Positions 10,047 through 19,463 of a DNA stretch of 38,761 nt are shown here, in pieces. How positions within the stretch are numbered: the first letter of the stretch is position 1; every line of letters begins with the position of its first letter. The position numbers were made by a program, and so were the translations under genes. The DNA is from Parcubacteria group bacterium (GTDB lineage: Bacteria > Patescibacteriota > Minisyncoccia > Phycocordibacterales > Phycocordibacteraceae), in assembly GCA_028286545.1 (NCBI GenBank), contig JAQBRJ010000015.1, positions 1 through 38,761 of the forward strand, written 5' to 3'. The notes under the pieces were generated by a model. It did not search any database, had not been told where the DNA came from, and saw nothing but the letters and a program-made list of their open reading frames with translations.

Positions 10047-10151
10047 GATGATTCTCCTTTCAGAGTCACGGTAGCATATATCTGCATAATGCATAGTTCT
10101 GAGAATAAATATGGAAATGAACAGAGCTCGCGAATCTGGTATAGTCGCCGT

Positions 10152-11846
10152 ATGGAAGACCGGATTAAGGAAATAGTCCAAAAGGAACTTACGAAGCTCG
10201 GTGCAGGCGACGTGAGCTTTGCTGTTGAATGGCCTGCCGATCTGGCACACGGCGATTACGCCGTGAATGCTGCGATGGCGGCGAGCAAGGTGTTGGGGAA
10301 GAGCCCCCGCGATATCGCTGAAGCACTCGTGCCTGCCCTCGTGGAGGGTCTGGGCGAGGACGCTGCGAGCGTTCTGATTGCAGGGCCTGGGTTTATAAAC
10401 ATCACGCTCTCGGAGCGCGCCGTTTCGGCGCGCCTCGCCGAAGCAGGCGAAGAATCGTGGGGTCGCAACGAGGACGAAAACGGTACTCGAATAATGGTTG
10501 AGTACGGCAACCCAAATCCGTTTAAAGAAATGCACATAGGGCACGCAACCGGTGCCGTGATTGGAGAGGCATCCGCGCGCCTCATTGAATACTCTGGAGC
10601 GACGGTATTGCGTGATACGTTTGGTGGCGACGTTGGCCCACAAGTTGCAAAAGCATTGTGGGTCTTTCAGAAAGACGGAGTAACAGACATTGCCTCTGCA
10701 CAGGAGATAGGGAAGGCATACACGCAAGGTGCTACCGCATACGAAGAAAGCGAAGAAGCAAAAGCTGAAATCGATGCTTTGAACACGCGCATATACGATA
10801 TCGTTGGGCGACAAGAAGACCAGGAAGGATTTTCTGAAGAAGACCGTGCGCTTCTCCGCCTTTGGCAGAAAGGTCGCGAAGTTTCGATGGAAGAATTTAA
10901 TCAGTTGTTCGAATTGCTCGGTACGAAATACGACTACACATTTTTTGATAGCGACACGACGAAGCCCGGAATGGACGCAGTGCTAGACGCGGTGGCAAAG
11001 GGAGTACTCGAAGAAAGTGAAGGAGCGATAATCTATCGTGGTGAAAAGAAAGGTCTCCACACTCTCGTCTTCGTCACGAGTCGTGGCACACCAACATACG
11101 AGACTAAGGACATCGGACTCGCATTCCTTAAGGAAATGCGCGCTGCAACTGATCGTGTCCTTATTCTTACCGCAGTAGAGCAGGTAGGACACTTTAAAGT
11201 ATTTCTTGCAGCGCTCGAAGATATCGCGCCGATGCTCGCAAAGAAAACAGAGCACGCAGCTCATGGGCTCCTCCAGCTTACGACGGGCAAGATGTCGTCG
11301 CGTAAAGGAAACGTCATTACTGCGCGCGAACTCATTACCGAGCTTGTGACAGCTGCGACCGAACGTAACTCCGATCCAGTCGTTGCACTCCAAGTCGCCA
11401 TCGGAGCACTCAAGTACATGATTCTACGTAGCGCACCCGGCTCTAATATTATTTTTGATCCAGAAAAGTCACTCTCACTCGATGGTGATTCAGGACCGTA
11501 CCTGCAGTACGCACTCGTGCGCGCACGTTCGATTGTCGAAAAGGCAGGAAAGGGAAGTGCTGCAAAGAATGACACAAGCAGTGAGCGACCAGAAACACCC
11601 TATGTATTGTCGCGCCTCATCACCCGTTTTCCAGAAATCATTCGTAAAGCACAAACGCTTCGCGCTCCACACGTCGTTGCGCAGTACCTTACACAGCTCG
11701 CAAGCGAGTGGAACTCTTTTTATGCAAACGAACGCATCATTGGTGAAGCCGACGAAGCGTACAAACTCGGCATCGCGAACGCTTTTATAAAAACAATGGA
11801 GAACGGTCTCTGGGTGCTTGGTATTCCTGCGCCAGAGAAGATGTAG
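10152..11846 (+). CDS. argS: Arginyl-tRNA synthetase
   Basis: HIGH-type 'EYGNPNPFKEMHIGHATGAVIGEASARLIEYSG', KMSK-like 'TGKMSSRKGNVITA'. Start set at MEDRIKEI. Confidence 0.95.
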   Translation: MEDRIKEIVQKELTKLGAGDVSFAVEWPADLAHGDYAVNAAMAASKVLGKSPRDIAEALVPALVEGLGEDAASVLIAGPGFINITLSERAVSARLAEAGEESWGRNEDENGTRIMVEYGNPNPFKEMHIGHATGAVIGEASARLIEYSGATVLRDTFGGDVGPQVAKALWVFQKDGVTDIASAQEIGKAYTQGATAYEESEEAKAEIDALNTRIYDIVGRQEDQEGFSEEDRALLRLWQKGREVSMEEFNQLFELLGTKYDYTFFDSDTTKPGMDAVLDAVAKGVLEESEGAIIYRGEKKGLHTLVFVTSRGTPTYETKDIGLAFLKEMRAATDRVLILTAVEQVGHFKVFLAALEDIAPMLAKKTEHAAHGLLQLTTGKMSSRKGNVITARELITELVTAATERNSDPVVALQVAIGALKYMILRSAPGSNIIFDPEKSLSLDGDSGPYLQYALVRARSIVEKAGKGSAAKNDTSSERPETPYVLSRLITRFPEIIRKAQTLRAPHVVAQYLTQLASEWNSFYANERIIGEADEAYKLGIANAFIKTMENGLWVLGIPAPEKM

Positions 11847-12324: not shown

Positions 12325-15300
12325 ATGAGCGAAAAGGACAAGACTCCGCAGGTGCTAAAGAAATCCGACGCCTCGGCGCGTGAGGAGGTCATACTCGAGT
12401 TTTGGAAGGAGCACGATATCTTCCAAAAGAGCCTTCAAAAGGAAGCGCCCAACGGCGAGTTTGTCTTTTATGATGGTCCGCCATTTGCGACAGGTCTTCC
12501 GCACTCTGGCTCTCTCCTTTCCTCAGTTTCTAAAGATGTATTTCCGCGCTACAAGACAATGCGTGGCTTTAACGTGCGTCGTCGTTGGGGATGGGACACC
12601 CACGGGCTTCCTATTGAATCGCTCGTTGAGAAAAAACTTGGTCTCAAGAATAAGAAAGAGATACTCGAAGTTGGTATTGAAACATTTAATGAAACGGCAC
12701 GCTCAATGGTGCTTGAATATGTAAATGACTGGAAGAAGTACGTCGAACGCGTCGGTCGCTTTGTCGATTTTGATAATTCATACAAGACGCTCGACCCATC
12801 GTTTATGGAATCGGTATGGTGGGCACTCGCCGAGATAAACAAGAAGGGGAACTTGTACGAAGGTCGCAAAGTGCTCATGTATTGTCCGCACTGTGAGACT
12901 CCGCTCGCAAAGGCCGAGATCGCGATGGATAACACCTATAAAGATGTTACCGACGAAACCGCGACTGTTAAATTTAAACTTGTAGACCCAACAAAGTATG
13001 GATTGCCTGAGAATACCTACCTTCTCGCATGGACGACGACACCGTGGACGCTTCCCGGGAACGTCGCACTCGCCGTAGGGAAGGAGATTGCATATGGTCT
13101 GTACGAAAAAGATGGACAGAATGTAGTTGTTGCAAAAGATCTTGCTGAGAAAAATGGTCTCACTGATTTGAAACAAGAACTTTCTGGCGCTGACTTACTC
13201 GAAGCGCAATACGAACCTCTCTACGAACTCCCGAGAGTCGCAGCGCACACCGGCAAGAAGTGGCTCGTGCTACCTGCTGATTTCGTAAACACCGAAGACG
13301 GTACGGGTATCGTACACACCGCTGTCATTTATGGTGAAGATGACTATCAACTTGGTCTTGCGGAAGGGTTGCCAATGGTGCCGATCCTAAATCCAAATGC
13401 GACGTACAACAACGATGCACCAGAGTTTATTCGCGGTCAGTATATTCGCAAAGCGGAGGCGCTCATAAAGAACGATCTCGAAGAACGCGGACTTCTTTTT
13501 GCAAAAGCACCCTATACCCACTCGTACCCGCATTGTTATCGTTGTGGCACAGCACTTATCTTCAACGCGGTCTCGTCGTGGTTCATCAACATTCAGGCAA
13601 TCAAGGAACGCATGCTCGAAGAGAATCAAAAGATCACCTGGACTCCTGAGTACCTCAAAGAGGGAAGGTTCCGTCACAATCTTGAGACAGCACCAGATTG
13701 GACTATTTCTCGTAATCGCTTCTGGGCGACGCCCCTTCCTATTTGGAAAGATGCTCTCGGAAACGTAACCGTTATCGGTTCTATAGAAGAGCTCAAAGCT
13801 CATACAAAAACCAATGGCAATACGTATTATGTGATGCGTCATGGTCAGGCACACTCAAACGTTGAAGAACGTGGAAACTCCGATCCAAAGAAGGAGAATC
13901 CTCTTACAGACCTTGGTCGCAGCCAGGTGAACGAGACGGCAGAGGGTCTTAAGACTGCAGGTATCGAATATATCTATGTATCGCCCATGCCTCGTGCACA
14001 AGAAACGGCACATATTGTCGCGAAGACTCTCGGACTCTCTGAAGATCGCATCGTCACTGAGCCGCGGTTGATCGAAAATGATTTTGGTCAGATGGATGGA
14101 ATACTCATTAGTGAGTATGAGACGCGCTACGCACGACGTGCAGACAAAATGACGCAGTCGCCTGAAGGCGCCGAAGCGTGGCATGACATAAAGACTCGCA
14201 TGGCAGACGCTCTCTACGACATCGAGAGCAAGCACACTGCGAATACTATTCTTATCGTTTCTCACGAAGGACCAATTCAAATGCTCGAAGCAGGAGCTCG
14301 TGGATACGATGATAAGACTTCTGGCGAAGCGATTGAAGATTGGCGTTTCTGTCTCGAAACGGGACATGCGCGAAAGCTTGAGTTCGTGCCGCTTCCGCAC
14401 AATAAGCACTTTGAACTCGATCTGCACTTGCCATATATCGATCGCGTACAGCTTCAGAATGAGAAGGACGAACCGCTCACGCGTATTCCTGAAGTCGTCG
14501 ACTGCTGGGTCGAGTCTGGCTCAATGCCCTTTGCGGAATACCACTACCCGATGGAAGGTCGTGAAGAATTCGAAAAGCGTTCCCATGCAGATTTCATCTC
14601 AGAATATATCGGCCAGACACGCGCCTGGTTCTACTACCTGCACGCGATAAGTTTGTCATTGTTTGATACTGCAGCGTTTAAGAATGTCGTAACGACGGGA
14701 ACGGTGCTTGCTGGTGATGGTGCAAAGCTCTCGAAGAGCAAGATGAACTATACCGATCCGTATCATCTCTTTGATAACTATGGTGCCGATGCCTTCCGTT
14801 ACTACCTGATGTCGTCAGTGGTGATGCAGGCCGAAGACCTTACGTTCCGCGATGATGATGTAAAGGAATCGCACAATCGTGTGGTCGCGATGCTTCGCAA
14901 CGTGATGAGTTTCTATGATATGTATGCGGGTGAGGTGACAGAAAGCACTTCAACAACTGAGCACGTACTTGATCGTTGGATACGGGTTCGTCTTGCCGAC
15001 TTGATACGAAATGCGACAGAGTCGCTTGAGCGCTATGACGTCATCCGTGCAACACGCCCACTCCGTGATTTTATTGACGACCTTTCAACGTGGTATCTTC
15101 GTCGTTCACGCGAACGCATGAAGGGTGAGGATACGGCAGACAAGGCTGCTGCTCTCCAGACCCTCAGCTTCGTGCTTAAGGAACTTTCTCTTGTAATAGC
15201 GCCTGTCATGCCATTTATCGCCGAAGAGATATATCAGAAGCTCCGTACTGAATCTGATCCTGAGTCAGTACACTTGGCTTCGTGGCCAGAAGCAATGGAT

Positions 15301-15705
15301 GCAGCCGACGCAGAGCTTCTTGAGAATATGGCACGCGTTCGCGCGCTGGCATCTGAAGCGCTCATGCTTCGTCAGAAGGCAGACATGAAAGTTCGACAAC
15401 CTCTCGCGAGTCTTTCTATTCCTGAAGCATTGCCTGCAGATCTTTCGAATATTCTTGCCGAAGAAGTGAATGTGAAAAAAATAATCCCTGGTTCTGCAGA
15501 GCTTGTGCTCGATACGGTACTTACGCCTGAGCTAATCGCTGAGGGGGATGAGCGTACGTTTGCACGTGCCGTGGCCGAAGCGCGCAAGACCGAAGGTCTT
15601 GCGCCTCAGGATAAAGTTGAAGCGAAGCGAAGCGATGACGGTATCTACACCGCTGAACTCTCAACGGGCTCGGTGAAATTCTCACTCGTACGCAATGCGA
15701 CATAA
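12325..15705 (+). CDS. ileS: Isoleucyl-tRNA synthetase with inserted histidine phosphatase-like domain
   Basis: 'YDGPPFATGLPHSGSLLSSVSKDVFPRYKTMRGFNVRRRWGWDTHGLP', 'WTTTPWTLPGN', 'GDGAKLSKSKMNYTDP'. In-frame insert with 'YYVMRHGQAHSN' and 'LIVSHEGPIQML'. Confidence 0.95.
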   Translation: MSEKDKTPQVLKKSDASAREEVILEFWKEHDIFQKSLQKEAPNGEFVFYDGPPFATGLPHSGSLLSSVSKDVFPRYKTMRGFNVRRRWGWDTHGLPIESLVEKKLGLKNKKEILEVGIETFNETARSMVLEYVNDWKKYVERVGRFVDFDNSYKTLDPSFMESVWWALAEINKKGNLYEGRKVLMYCPHCETPLAKAEIAMDNTYKDVTDETATVKFKLVDPTKYGLPENTYLLAWTTTPWTLPGNVALAVGKEIAYGLYEKDGQNVVVAKDLAEKNGLTDLKQELSGADLLEAQYEPLYELPRVAAHTGKKWLVLPADFVNTEDGTGIVHTAVIYGEDDYQLGLAEGLPMVPILNPNATYNNDAPEFIRGQYIRKAEALIKNDLEERGLLFAKAPYTHSYPHCYRCGTALIFNAVSSWFINIQAIKERMLEENQKITWTPEYLKEGRFRHNLETAPDWTISRNRFWATPLPIWKDALGNVTVIGSIEELKAHTKTNGNTYYVMRHGQAHSNVEERGNSDPKKENPLTDLGRSQVNETAEGLKTAGIEYIYVSPMPRAQETAHIVAKTLGLSEDRIVTEPRLIENDFGQMDGILISEYETRYARRADKMTQSPEGAEAWHDIKTRMADALYDIESKHTANTILIVSHEGPIQMLEAGARGYDDKTSGEAIEDWRFCLETGHARKLEFVPLPHNKHFELDLHLPYIDRVQLQNEKDEPLTRIPEVVDCWVESGSMPFAEYHYPMEGREEFEKRSHADFISEYIGQTRAWFYYLHAISLSLFDTAAFKNVVTTGTVLAGDGAKLSKSKMNYTDPYHLFDNYGADAFRYYLMSSVVMQAEDLTFRDDDVKESHNRVVAMLRNVMSFYDMYAGEVTESTSTTEHVLDRWIRVRLADLIRNATESLERYDVIRATRPLRDFIDDLSTWYLRRSRERMKGEDTADKAAALQTLSFVLKELSLVIAPVMPFIAEEIYQKLRTESDPESVHLASWPEAMDAADAELLENMARVRALASEALMLRQKADMKVRQPLASLSIPEALPADLSNILAEEVNVKKIIPGSAELVLDTVLTPELIAEGDERTFARAVAEARKTEGLAPQDKVEAKRSDDGIYTAELSTGSVKFSLVRNAT

Positions 15706-16264
15706 ATACTCAGCGCGTGCGCTCGTGCTTAGCCGCACGTTGATAGGGGAGGCGAGTGTGTCGGTGTCGATGCTCACGGAAGACTTCGGCATCATACGGG
15801 CGCGCTCCCAAGGAGCGCGCAAGCCGGGCGCCAAAATGGCGCCCGCACTTCAAACTCTCTCGCTCGCCGACGTCACGCTCATCCGCGGCAAAGACGGCTG
15901 GCGTACCGCCGGTGCAATCCTCGAAGAGAACTGGGCGCGACAACTCCCGCCAAAGGCACGCGCACGTGCCGTGCGCGTGACAGAACTTGCCCAACGCCTC
16001 GTTCAAGGAGAGCGCGCAGACCCTGAACTCTTTTCTATACTCTTAGCCTTCGTTCGTGTACTCGGCACGCTCGAAGAACCCGAACAAGAAGCCGCAGAAA
16101 TGATCGCCGCAGTACGCGTTCTTCACGTACTTGGTCTCGATGCGGGCGATACCTTTGGTGCGTCTGACGAATACGCCCGAGAACAACTCGCCGCAGCTAC
16201 CGAAGGCAAGACCGCGCTCATCACCCGTATCAACCACGGCATCGCGAGTTCGGGTCTCTATTAA
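15695..16264 (+). CDS. recO: DNA repair protein RecO
   Basis: 'YSARALVLSRTLIGEASVSVSMLTEDFGIIRARSQGARKPGAKMAPALQTLSLADVTLIRGKDGWR'; overlaps the ileS end by 11 nt. Confidence 0.8.
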   Translation: MRHKYSARALVLSRTLIGEASVSVSMLTEDFGIIRARSQGARKPGAKMAPALQTLSLADVTLIRGKDGWRTAGAILEENWARQLPPKARARAVRVTELAQRLVQGERADPELFSILLAFVRVLGTLEEPEQEAAEMIAAVRVLHVLGLDAGDTFGASDEYAREQLAAATEGKTALITRINHGIASSGLY

Positions 16265-17961: not shown

Positions 17962-18046
17962 ATTCTCCTCAATAATTGGTGCGTCAGCGCACCAATTATT
18001 CCCAATCGGAGCGACCGGTCTTTCGAAGGCCGCCGCGGAGGAGAAT
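17962..18046 (+). promoter_or_regulatory. Structured 5' leader with anti-SD/SD helix enclosing two hairpins
   Basis: ATTCTCCTC (17962-17970) is the exact reverse complement of GAGGAGAAT (18038-18046); between them a perfect 13-bp hairpin (17971-18000) and CGGTCTT-tcg-AAGGCCG. Confidence 0.55.
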
Positions 18047-18050
18047 TGCT

Positions 18051-19463
18051 ATGAACACGAATCGCAAGAACGAATCGCCTGTTGGTCTGCCTCGGGAAAT
18101 TGAGGTCACGATTCAACAGGGCAGGCACCCGAAGACGGGTCTGTCGCAGTGGACGGGAAGCTATCAGCTGGAAGCGCCTTACAGCGCCGACAGCGTCAAA
18201 ACTTCCAATCCCTTTGCCGCAGCACTGGGTCACCTTATCGATCCGGAACCGATCACCGTCAAGGTGGTCGTCAACGAGAAAGAGTGGAGTGGCCCGCTTG
18301 CAGAAGGCGAGATCTGGATGGTTCAGCCGAACAATTACCTGCCGGATTCCAAGATCATGTTCGCTGACGCGCTCTATCGGGCAAAAAACTCGCCCGTTGT
18401 GCGCGACTCATCGTGGATGCATCCCATGGTACTCGACATGTTCGAGCGCATGGCATGGGATATCCGCAGCGTCAGCTGTGGAGGACTGATCAAACTCGGC
18501 GCCTGGCGCTGGGAAGATCGGCACGTGTTCGAGAGCGGGCGATCGGTAAAGCCGCATCGTTCATTCAAAGAAACGCGTGAGGGTGGTCTTAAGGCTATTC
18601 GTTCCGAAGCCGGCTGGCTCCATCTCACGATCGAGTTCGGCAAAGAAGCGCCGACCGAAGAAGATTACTACCATTACGAGTATTGGACGGAAGAGTTCGT
18701 TATTCCGCTTCATGAGTGTAAGCCCAACTGGACCTACCTGCATGATTTCTCGGGTCCTTACGAGGTCGGTCATACCATCTACGTCGACAGTGGGGAAGCC
18801 TTCAGCCTCCCGCTCCTTCTCAAGGGAACGGACCGAGGGCTGGCGGGGCCATTCGATCAGAGTATGATCGGACGGCAGTTGGCCCGCGTACCTGGGTCTA
18901 TCGACTATGACGCGCTCATTACGCGCGTTCTTCCCGGATGCATCTTGAAGCTCTCCGACCGTGGAGTTGCCGAACAGGTGCGAGCGTCGAGGTGGGACTT
19001 TATTGGCGTTGTGTCCTCGGTTGCGCGCCGTGCAAACGGCGCGTGGGAAGTGATGTTCGAACAGAACACACTATGGTTCAAGTCCGGGCATGCCTGGCGT
19101 AAGCTTGGCATGCCGCATCAGAAGCGGTCATACCGAGGGGACGCGTGGACTCTGCCGAAAGAGCAGGTGCCATTCCTCGGATTTCGCTCGCTCTTGTTTC
19201 AGTCCCTTGAGTTGCCCGAGCAAACAGGCTTGGTTCCTCAGTATCAGCTCGTCCGAGACTCCGACGGCGACATCGTTGGGTTTGAGGGTGAGATGGAGCT
19301 GCGGGGTCGTCTGTGCAGCGAGCATCTACTTTCTGACGGAACCCATCCGTCCAGGAAGCGGGCTGGATCGACCTACTGCTACATCTACGATCCGTCGTCT
19401 TATGATTTCTATCCGAGCCAGTTTGATTTGCCGGAAGAACTCTGGAGGCGATTTGGACTATGA
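18051..19463 (+). CDS. Large orphan hypothetical protein (470 aa)
   Basis: SD GGAGGAG 5-10 nt before ATG (MNTNRKNESPVGLPREIEVT...), own promoter and terminator; no family recognised. Confidence 0.75.
   Translation: MNTNRKNESPVGLPREIEVTIQQGRHPKTGLSQWTGSYQLEAPYSADSVKTSNPFAAALGHLIDPEPITVKVVVNEKEWSGPLAEGEIWMVQPNNYLPDSKIMFADALYRAKNSPVVRDSSWMHPMVLDMFERMAWDIRSVSCGGLIKLGAWRWEDRHVFESGRSVKPHRSFKETREGGLKAIRSEAGWLHLTIEFGKEAPTEEDYYHYEYWTEEFVIPLHECKPNWTYLHDFSGPYEVGHTIYVDSGEAFSLPLLLKGTDRGLAGPFDQSMIGRQLARVPGSIDYDALITRVLPGCILKLSDRGVAEQVRASRWDFIGVVSSVARRANGAWEVMFEQNTLWFKSGHAWRKLGMPHQKRSYRGDAWTLPKEQVPFLGFRSLLFQSLELPEQTGLVPQYQLVRDSDGDIVGFEGEMELRGRLCSEHLLSDGTHPSRKRAGSTYCYIYDPSSYDFYPSQFDLPEELWRRFGL

Follow-up and report, generated by a model that had tools for sequence, protein, structure and literature searches.

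Why should an essential translation enzyme carry a phosphatase within its catalytic region, is that phosphatase likely to work, and what might it do there? These questions are raised by the ileS gene of a Parcubacteria group bacterium [GCA_028286545.1], which lies in a 38,761-nucleotide stretch of DNA (contig JAQBRJ010000015.1; hereafter the window). An earlier note, made from the sequence alone, had proposed that the gene specifies an isoleucyl-tRNA synthetase (IleRS) with a histidine phosphatase (HP) domain inserted in frame.

The ileS gene and its insert

The reading frame is unbroken, as the earlier note had stated: a single stop-free frame of 1126 residues runs from 12325 to 15705 on the forward strand. 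Its product is a type-2 IleRS, scoring 786 bits with TIGR00392 (cut-off 621.4) notwithstanding the insert, and its top PDB match is the Priestia IleRS2 [1.1e-82, 8c8v]. The catalytic, editing and anticodon parts are common to the window protein and the type-2 enzymes of Priestia megaterium [8c8v] and Thermus [1ile]. None of the top PDB IleRS2 matches, however, is described with a phosphatase, whereas in the window protein about 200 residues break up the catalytic half. The editing-site motifs TTTPWTLPG and GTGIVHTAVIYGEDDY are present, as is the KMSKS loop in the form KLSKS. Unlike the IleRS2 comparison proteins, the window protein has HSGS at the HIGH position (about residues 60–63), and HYGS, HYGT and HHGT are also seen there among relatives. 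The swapped form GxHH occupies this position in about 48 of 204 IleRS frames from loci which overlap (L135, L136, L139 and L040–L042, for example), and some other frames have AxHH in place of HIGH. In IleRS2 the GxHH form has been tied to mupirocin hyper-resistance, in a paper from whose main text the Patescibacteria are absent [PMC10485003].

Only one IleRS, the insert-bearing one, was found in the source genome (0.67 Mb, 84% complete). The gene order in the window is argS, ileS with its HP, recO. The argS gene (10098–11846, forward strand) was recognized by the Pfam families Arg_tRNA_synt_N, tRNA-synt_1d and DALR_1, and the recO-like gene, which belongs to the shared neighbourhood (15695–16264, forward strand), by RecO_N [2.4e-11, PF11967]. 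Also downstream of ileS is a 495-residue frame (17976–19463) which has no Pfam match and may be a gene.

The insert occupies a loop in the second part of the catalytic region, with GSIEELKAHT and DLHLPYID on either side. These flanks had been described as near-adjacent in ordinary IleRS, and so they are: at the same loop of HP-less relatives, GS-x-EEL is followed by 0–16 extra residues and then by DLHRPYID. Insertion mapping over the locus set placed 180 insertions at this site. From the mapping and the empty-site alignment to HP-less IleRS, the whole insert covers about residues 495–696 (13807–14412, forward strand); the insert proposed earlier is thus present, though its bounds of 13818–14400 were slightly too small.

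Residues 502–662 (13828–14310, forward strand) make up a branch-1 HP domain, recognized by PF00300 [2.7e-33; 115.7 bits against a gathering cut-off of 21.7], by its AlphaFold2 model and by its PDB neighbours 4pz9, 1h2e and 4ij6. AlphaFold2 folds both enzymes of the full-length IleRS with confidence (pLDDT 91.2, pTM 0.86), and does so for the insert with short flanks (pLDDT 93.0, pTM 0.89). The insert model has the alpha/beta phosphoglycerate-mutase-like fold, its Foldseek neighbours being PhoE, GpgP and phosphoserine phosphatase (E about 1e-12). With the branch-1 enzymes PhoE [1h2e], GpgP [Rv2419c, 4pz9], PSP [4ij5] and CobC it shares the fold and the full R, H, R, E, H set, but its identity to the best PDB neighbours is about 18–26% and it sits inside another enzyme. 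None of the NCBIfam equivalog cut-offs for dPGM, CobC, PspA, SixA or RNase H/acid phosphatase was reached by the insert, the scores being 94.9 bits against 326 for RNase H/acid phosphatase, 89.5 against 225 for dPGM_arch, 67.2 against 162.9 for CobC and 41.7 against 74.5 for SixA. Since every named subfamily cut-off failed, the substrate is not readable from sequence.

The catalytic set was read from an alignment (A1) as R505, H506, R557, E584 and H647. R505 and the nucleophile H506 belong to the RHG motif at 13837–13845, and the second catalytic histidine, H647 (IVSHEGP), is encoded at 14263–14265; both lie where the earlier note had placed them. The second catalytic arginine, R557 (SPMPRAQET), is at 13993–13995 and the general acid, E584 (RLIENDFG), at 14074–14076, all on the forward strand. 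Both arginines and both histidines are invariant in the 144 distinct IleRS inserts compared, while the acid is E in 140 of the 144 and D in two. This set is kept although the aligned inserts are 30–55% identical to that of the window. The dN/dS ratio of the HP insert (0.04–0.18; 18 close pairs with defined dS) is similar to that of the adjoining IleRS core. Low dN/dS and retained residues together indicate purifying selection on the HP, and on its catalytic residues in particular. Altered acid or second-histidine positions do occur in a few HP copies outside the class, for example in L066, L069, L131 and L082.

Judged by its sequence, the window gene specifies a type-2 IleRS and a complete branch-1 HP joined in a single polypeptide. 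That the synthetase carries a probably active phosphatase, as had been proposed, is supported by the PF00300 match, the predicted fold and the invariant residues.

Spread, loss and repeated change

A survey of IleRS proteins for the same insertion, which the earlier note had suggested, found it in 108 of the 118 genomes of the window's order. Since the fusion is shared so widely and occurs in two complete chromosomes [CP011209.1, CP011215.1], it is no assembly chimera; with the PF00300 match, the predicted fold and the retained catalytic residues, the proposal has withstood the refutations named for it in the earlier note. Among the matches listed for a class sample of 286 genomes, nearly all were in frames of more than 1000 residues. 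A scan of GTDB r220 genomes (alignment A2) gave 383 stretches which encode relatives. Among the best 80 of these 383 are the two complete chromosomes and members of the Wolfe-, Niyogi-, Campbell-, Nomura-, Yonath-, Lloyd-, Vogel-, Kaiser-, Taga-, Portnoy- and Zambryskibacteria and other Parcubacteria; a lone "Spirochaetia" match in the scan probably stems from a mis-binned contig. Across 59 genomes sampled without bias, IleRS and ValRS accounted for all the HPs in frames of more than 900 residues, and in some genomes (G731 and G232) no HP other than the insert was found.

One genus offers a natural deletion. The IleRS of G731 carries the HP, which accounts for every PF00300 match in that genome, while G660 has a normal IleRS of 973 residues without it. 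The G660 protein retains a scar, SLPQNENGEPDLHKP, which matches the C-terminal end of the G731 insert, FPHNENYELDLHRP; the insert was therefore lost in G660 by deletion. PF00300 has no match anywhere in the G660 genome (99% complete). It follows from this normal, insert-free IleRS that aminoacylation does not need the HP, and from the loss with no HP left behind that the function of the HP is useful over long times yet dispensable.

The phosphatase is found as a free gene too. Immediately upstream of an insert-free ileS, eight loci have a gene for an HP of 184–213 residues, so placed that the order is argS-HP-ileS; the family identities were confirmed for L138. Three loci of this kind (L076–L078) had the look of an IleRS split around an HP gene, which was discarded: the upstream frame is argS [TIGR00456 in L138] and the downstream one a whole IleRS. 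Six of the free HP genes group with IleRS inserts on the HP tree (SH-aLRT 89), and a single origin of six neighbour HP genes was not rejected by that tree taken alone (p 0.19). By contrast, the HP tree did reject a single clade of all IleRS inserts (AU p 0.0004), and the IleRS tree, built from the IleRS core with the inserts left out, a single clade of insert carriers (AU p 5e-6). Counting well-supported branches of this core tree, the inserted state changed at least eight times, by gain or loss, and the neighbour state at least six times.

Other inserted and fused enzymes

HP domains are not confined to IleRS. In ValRS they occupy the loop equivalent to the IleRS site (L064–L069, L148, L149, L160 and L114, the last with a tandem pair), five HP-bearing proteins being confirmed as ValRS above the cut-off. 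The ValRS domains are scattered over several places of the HP tree, so that repeated insertion is likely. Outside the class there are IleRS with a tandem pair of HPs, or with as many as three, at three sites (L070:676-5382, 1569 residues); proteins of 1440–1570 residues with two or three HPs at up to three sites are found in L070, L074, L075, L081, L083 and L122.

Insertion mapping showed that other enzyme domains enter IleRS at loops other than the HP site; the patescibacterial IleRS which bear them are rare. Together with an HP, one IleRS (L082) has a serine hydrolase and a NUDIX domain, the extra domains lying at residues 259–393 and 462–589, another (L115) a GNAT domain (residues 641–739) and a third (L198) an HD domain (residues 1165–1359). 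In L158 a NUDIX domain (residues 232–405) stands alone. No NUDIX domain was found in IleRS across a sample of 192 genomes, and random insertion of common small domains was rejected on this empty search. The IleRS of L172 and L131 have inserts of about 180 residues in another loop of the editing domain, neither of which is named by Pfam. By eye, that of L172 looks like the L082 serine hydrolase. For the L131 insert, which had a CYTH-like look, Pfam gave no match and we claim no identity. Fusions of HP to proteins other than synthetases were also seen: in L117 and L118 the partner is a 2-hydroxyacid dehydrogenase (Pfam match in L117), in L119 and L120 a VTT/DedA-type membrane protein (Pfam match in L119), and each fusion adjoins a putative enolase gene.

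Synthetases bearing additional enzyme domains have been seen before. Nor is a second enzyme in an IleRS new in kind, since NCBI has a model for an IleRS with GNAT [NF040702, ileS_w_GNAT]; the window protein differs in its domain, scoring 302 bits against a cut-off of 1999 and having no GNAT Pfam match. Mycobacterial MutT1 resembles the window IleRS in joining an HP to another enzyme domain, but its HP is C-terminal rather than inserted, no synthetase is involved, and the reported activities are those of the NUDIX half or of the whole protein [PMC11784022]. No publication describing an HP inside an IleRS was found in a search which took in a minority of subscription journals and preprints, and the architecture may be listed automatically in domain databases. 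The phosphatase variant of IleRS, its spread and its recurrence appear to be undescribed.

Possible roles of the phosphatase

With moderate confidence we favour an active HP module which rides in cis on IleRS, is under selection for the chemistry that it performs and acts on a small phosphorylated substrate of its own, independently of aminoacylation and editing. Both enzymes are predicted to fold normally, and the HP, placed in a loop of the synthetase catalytic region, would be catalytically competent. The two-step phosphohistidine mechanism is standard for the HP family. By analogy with that family, H506 would accept the phosphate from a phosphomonoester, E584 would give a proton to the leaving group, and water would then free the phosphate from the phosphohistidine. 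The HP reaction would be no part of aminoacylation or editing, and the benefit to the HP may lie in being made in cis with, and in amounts equal to, an essential translation enzyme. Its activity, its chemistry and its independence from aminoacylation are what we infer. The roles in editing, in the control of (p)ppGpp/AMP-type nucleotides and in tRNA or adenylate processing, which the earlier note had offered as speculation, are speculative still. Bearing on function are the class-wide spread of the fusion, its recurrence, the presence of HPs in ValRS and the loss in some species, none of which was visible from the window alone. An independent module is favoured because IleRS works without it, because a free HP gene exists and because unrelated enzymes ride on other IleRS. 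Against it stand the preference of the HP for IleRS and ValRS, the eight or more changes of state and the empty NUDIX search, all of which favour a link; such a preference is unexpected for neutral cargo and so points to the work of IleRS and ValRS.

The main rival is therefore functional coupling, which we regard as possible though rather doubtful. The HP substrate would be a product or ligand of IleRS and ValRS, or a signal controlling them; candidates are AMP, pyrophosphate, Ap4A-type dinucleotides, a phosphorylated amino-acid mimic or inhibitor, or a tRNA end. Coupling would suit an HP which enters IleRS and its nearest relative, ValRS, recurrently, and which in some HP-less lineages is encoded just upstream of ileS. 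NUDIX and HD, which are also found in IleRS, are folds that include dinucleotide-cleaving members, although GNAT and the serine hydrolase fall outside any common nucleotide theme. MutT1, with its NUDIX and HP domains, is reported to be active on diadenosine polyphosphates, but its phosphatase activity tested on NDK belongs to the NUDIX half and not to the HP half [PMC11784022]. The clean loss in G660, where no other HP is present, also argues against coupling. Nor does the HP appear to be a stand-in inorganic pyrophosphatase, a variant to which a phylogenetic profile gave no support: PF00719 occurs in 20 of 41 genomes irrespective of the insert, and is absent in the insert-free G660.

A broader form of the idea, put forward more tentatively still, is that the IleRS and ValRS of Patescibacteria are recurrent phosphatase platforms, whose reaction might be coupled to branched-chain aminoacylation by clearing a phosphorylated by-product, an inhibitor or a signal, for instance. 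We know of no description of a cis-acting accessory activity of this kind in any synthetase.

It is improbable that the domain is a pseudo-phosphatase, a structural or binding module which stabilises IleRS or holds a ligand and whose catalysis is dispensable. The domain is compact and confidently predicted, and the altered acid or second-histidine positions outside the class would fit such a role, but four invariant catalytic residues in every IleRS insert compared are not expected of a mere scaffold, and IleRS relatives manage without an HP. Slighter still is the likelihood of an opportunistic passenger, settled in an insertion-tolerant loop and spread by homologous recombination between ileS alleles with the keeping of a phosphatase gene as its only benefit in cis, for although repeated gain or loss, other enzymes at other IleRS loops and the deletion in G660 would agree with it, the HP is kept across nearly all of the order and is strongly preferred to NUDIX, common as that domain is in these genomes.

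What is unusual is that an intact phosphatase lodged in an essential synthetase, within its catalytic half, is kept across most of an order and has been repeatedly gained or lost in IleRS. Annotation as "isoleucine--tRNA ligase" alone masks the HP, which in the genomes of some species is the sole member of its family found. Inserted, in an adjacent gene, deleted or multiplied, the HP provides a natural series bearing on why enzymes fuse. Patescibacteria are ultrasmall bacteria with small genomes and many unexplained gaps, and the fusion of HP to IleRS is a testable lead into their unexplained biochemistry.
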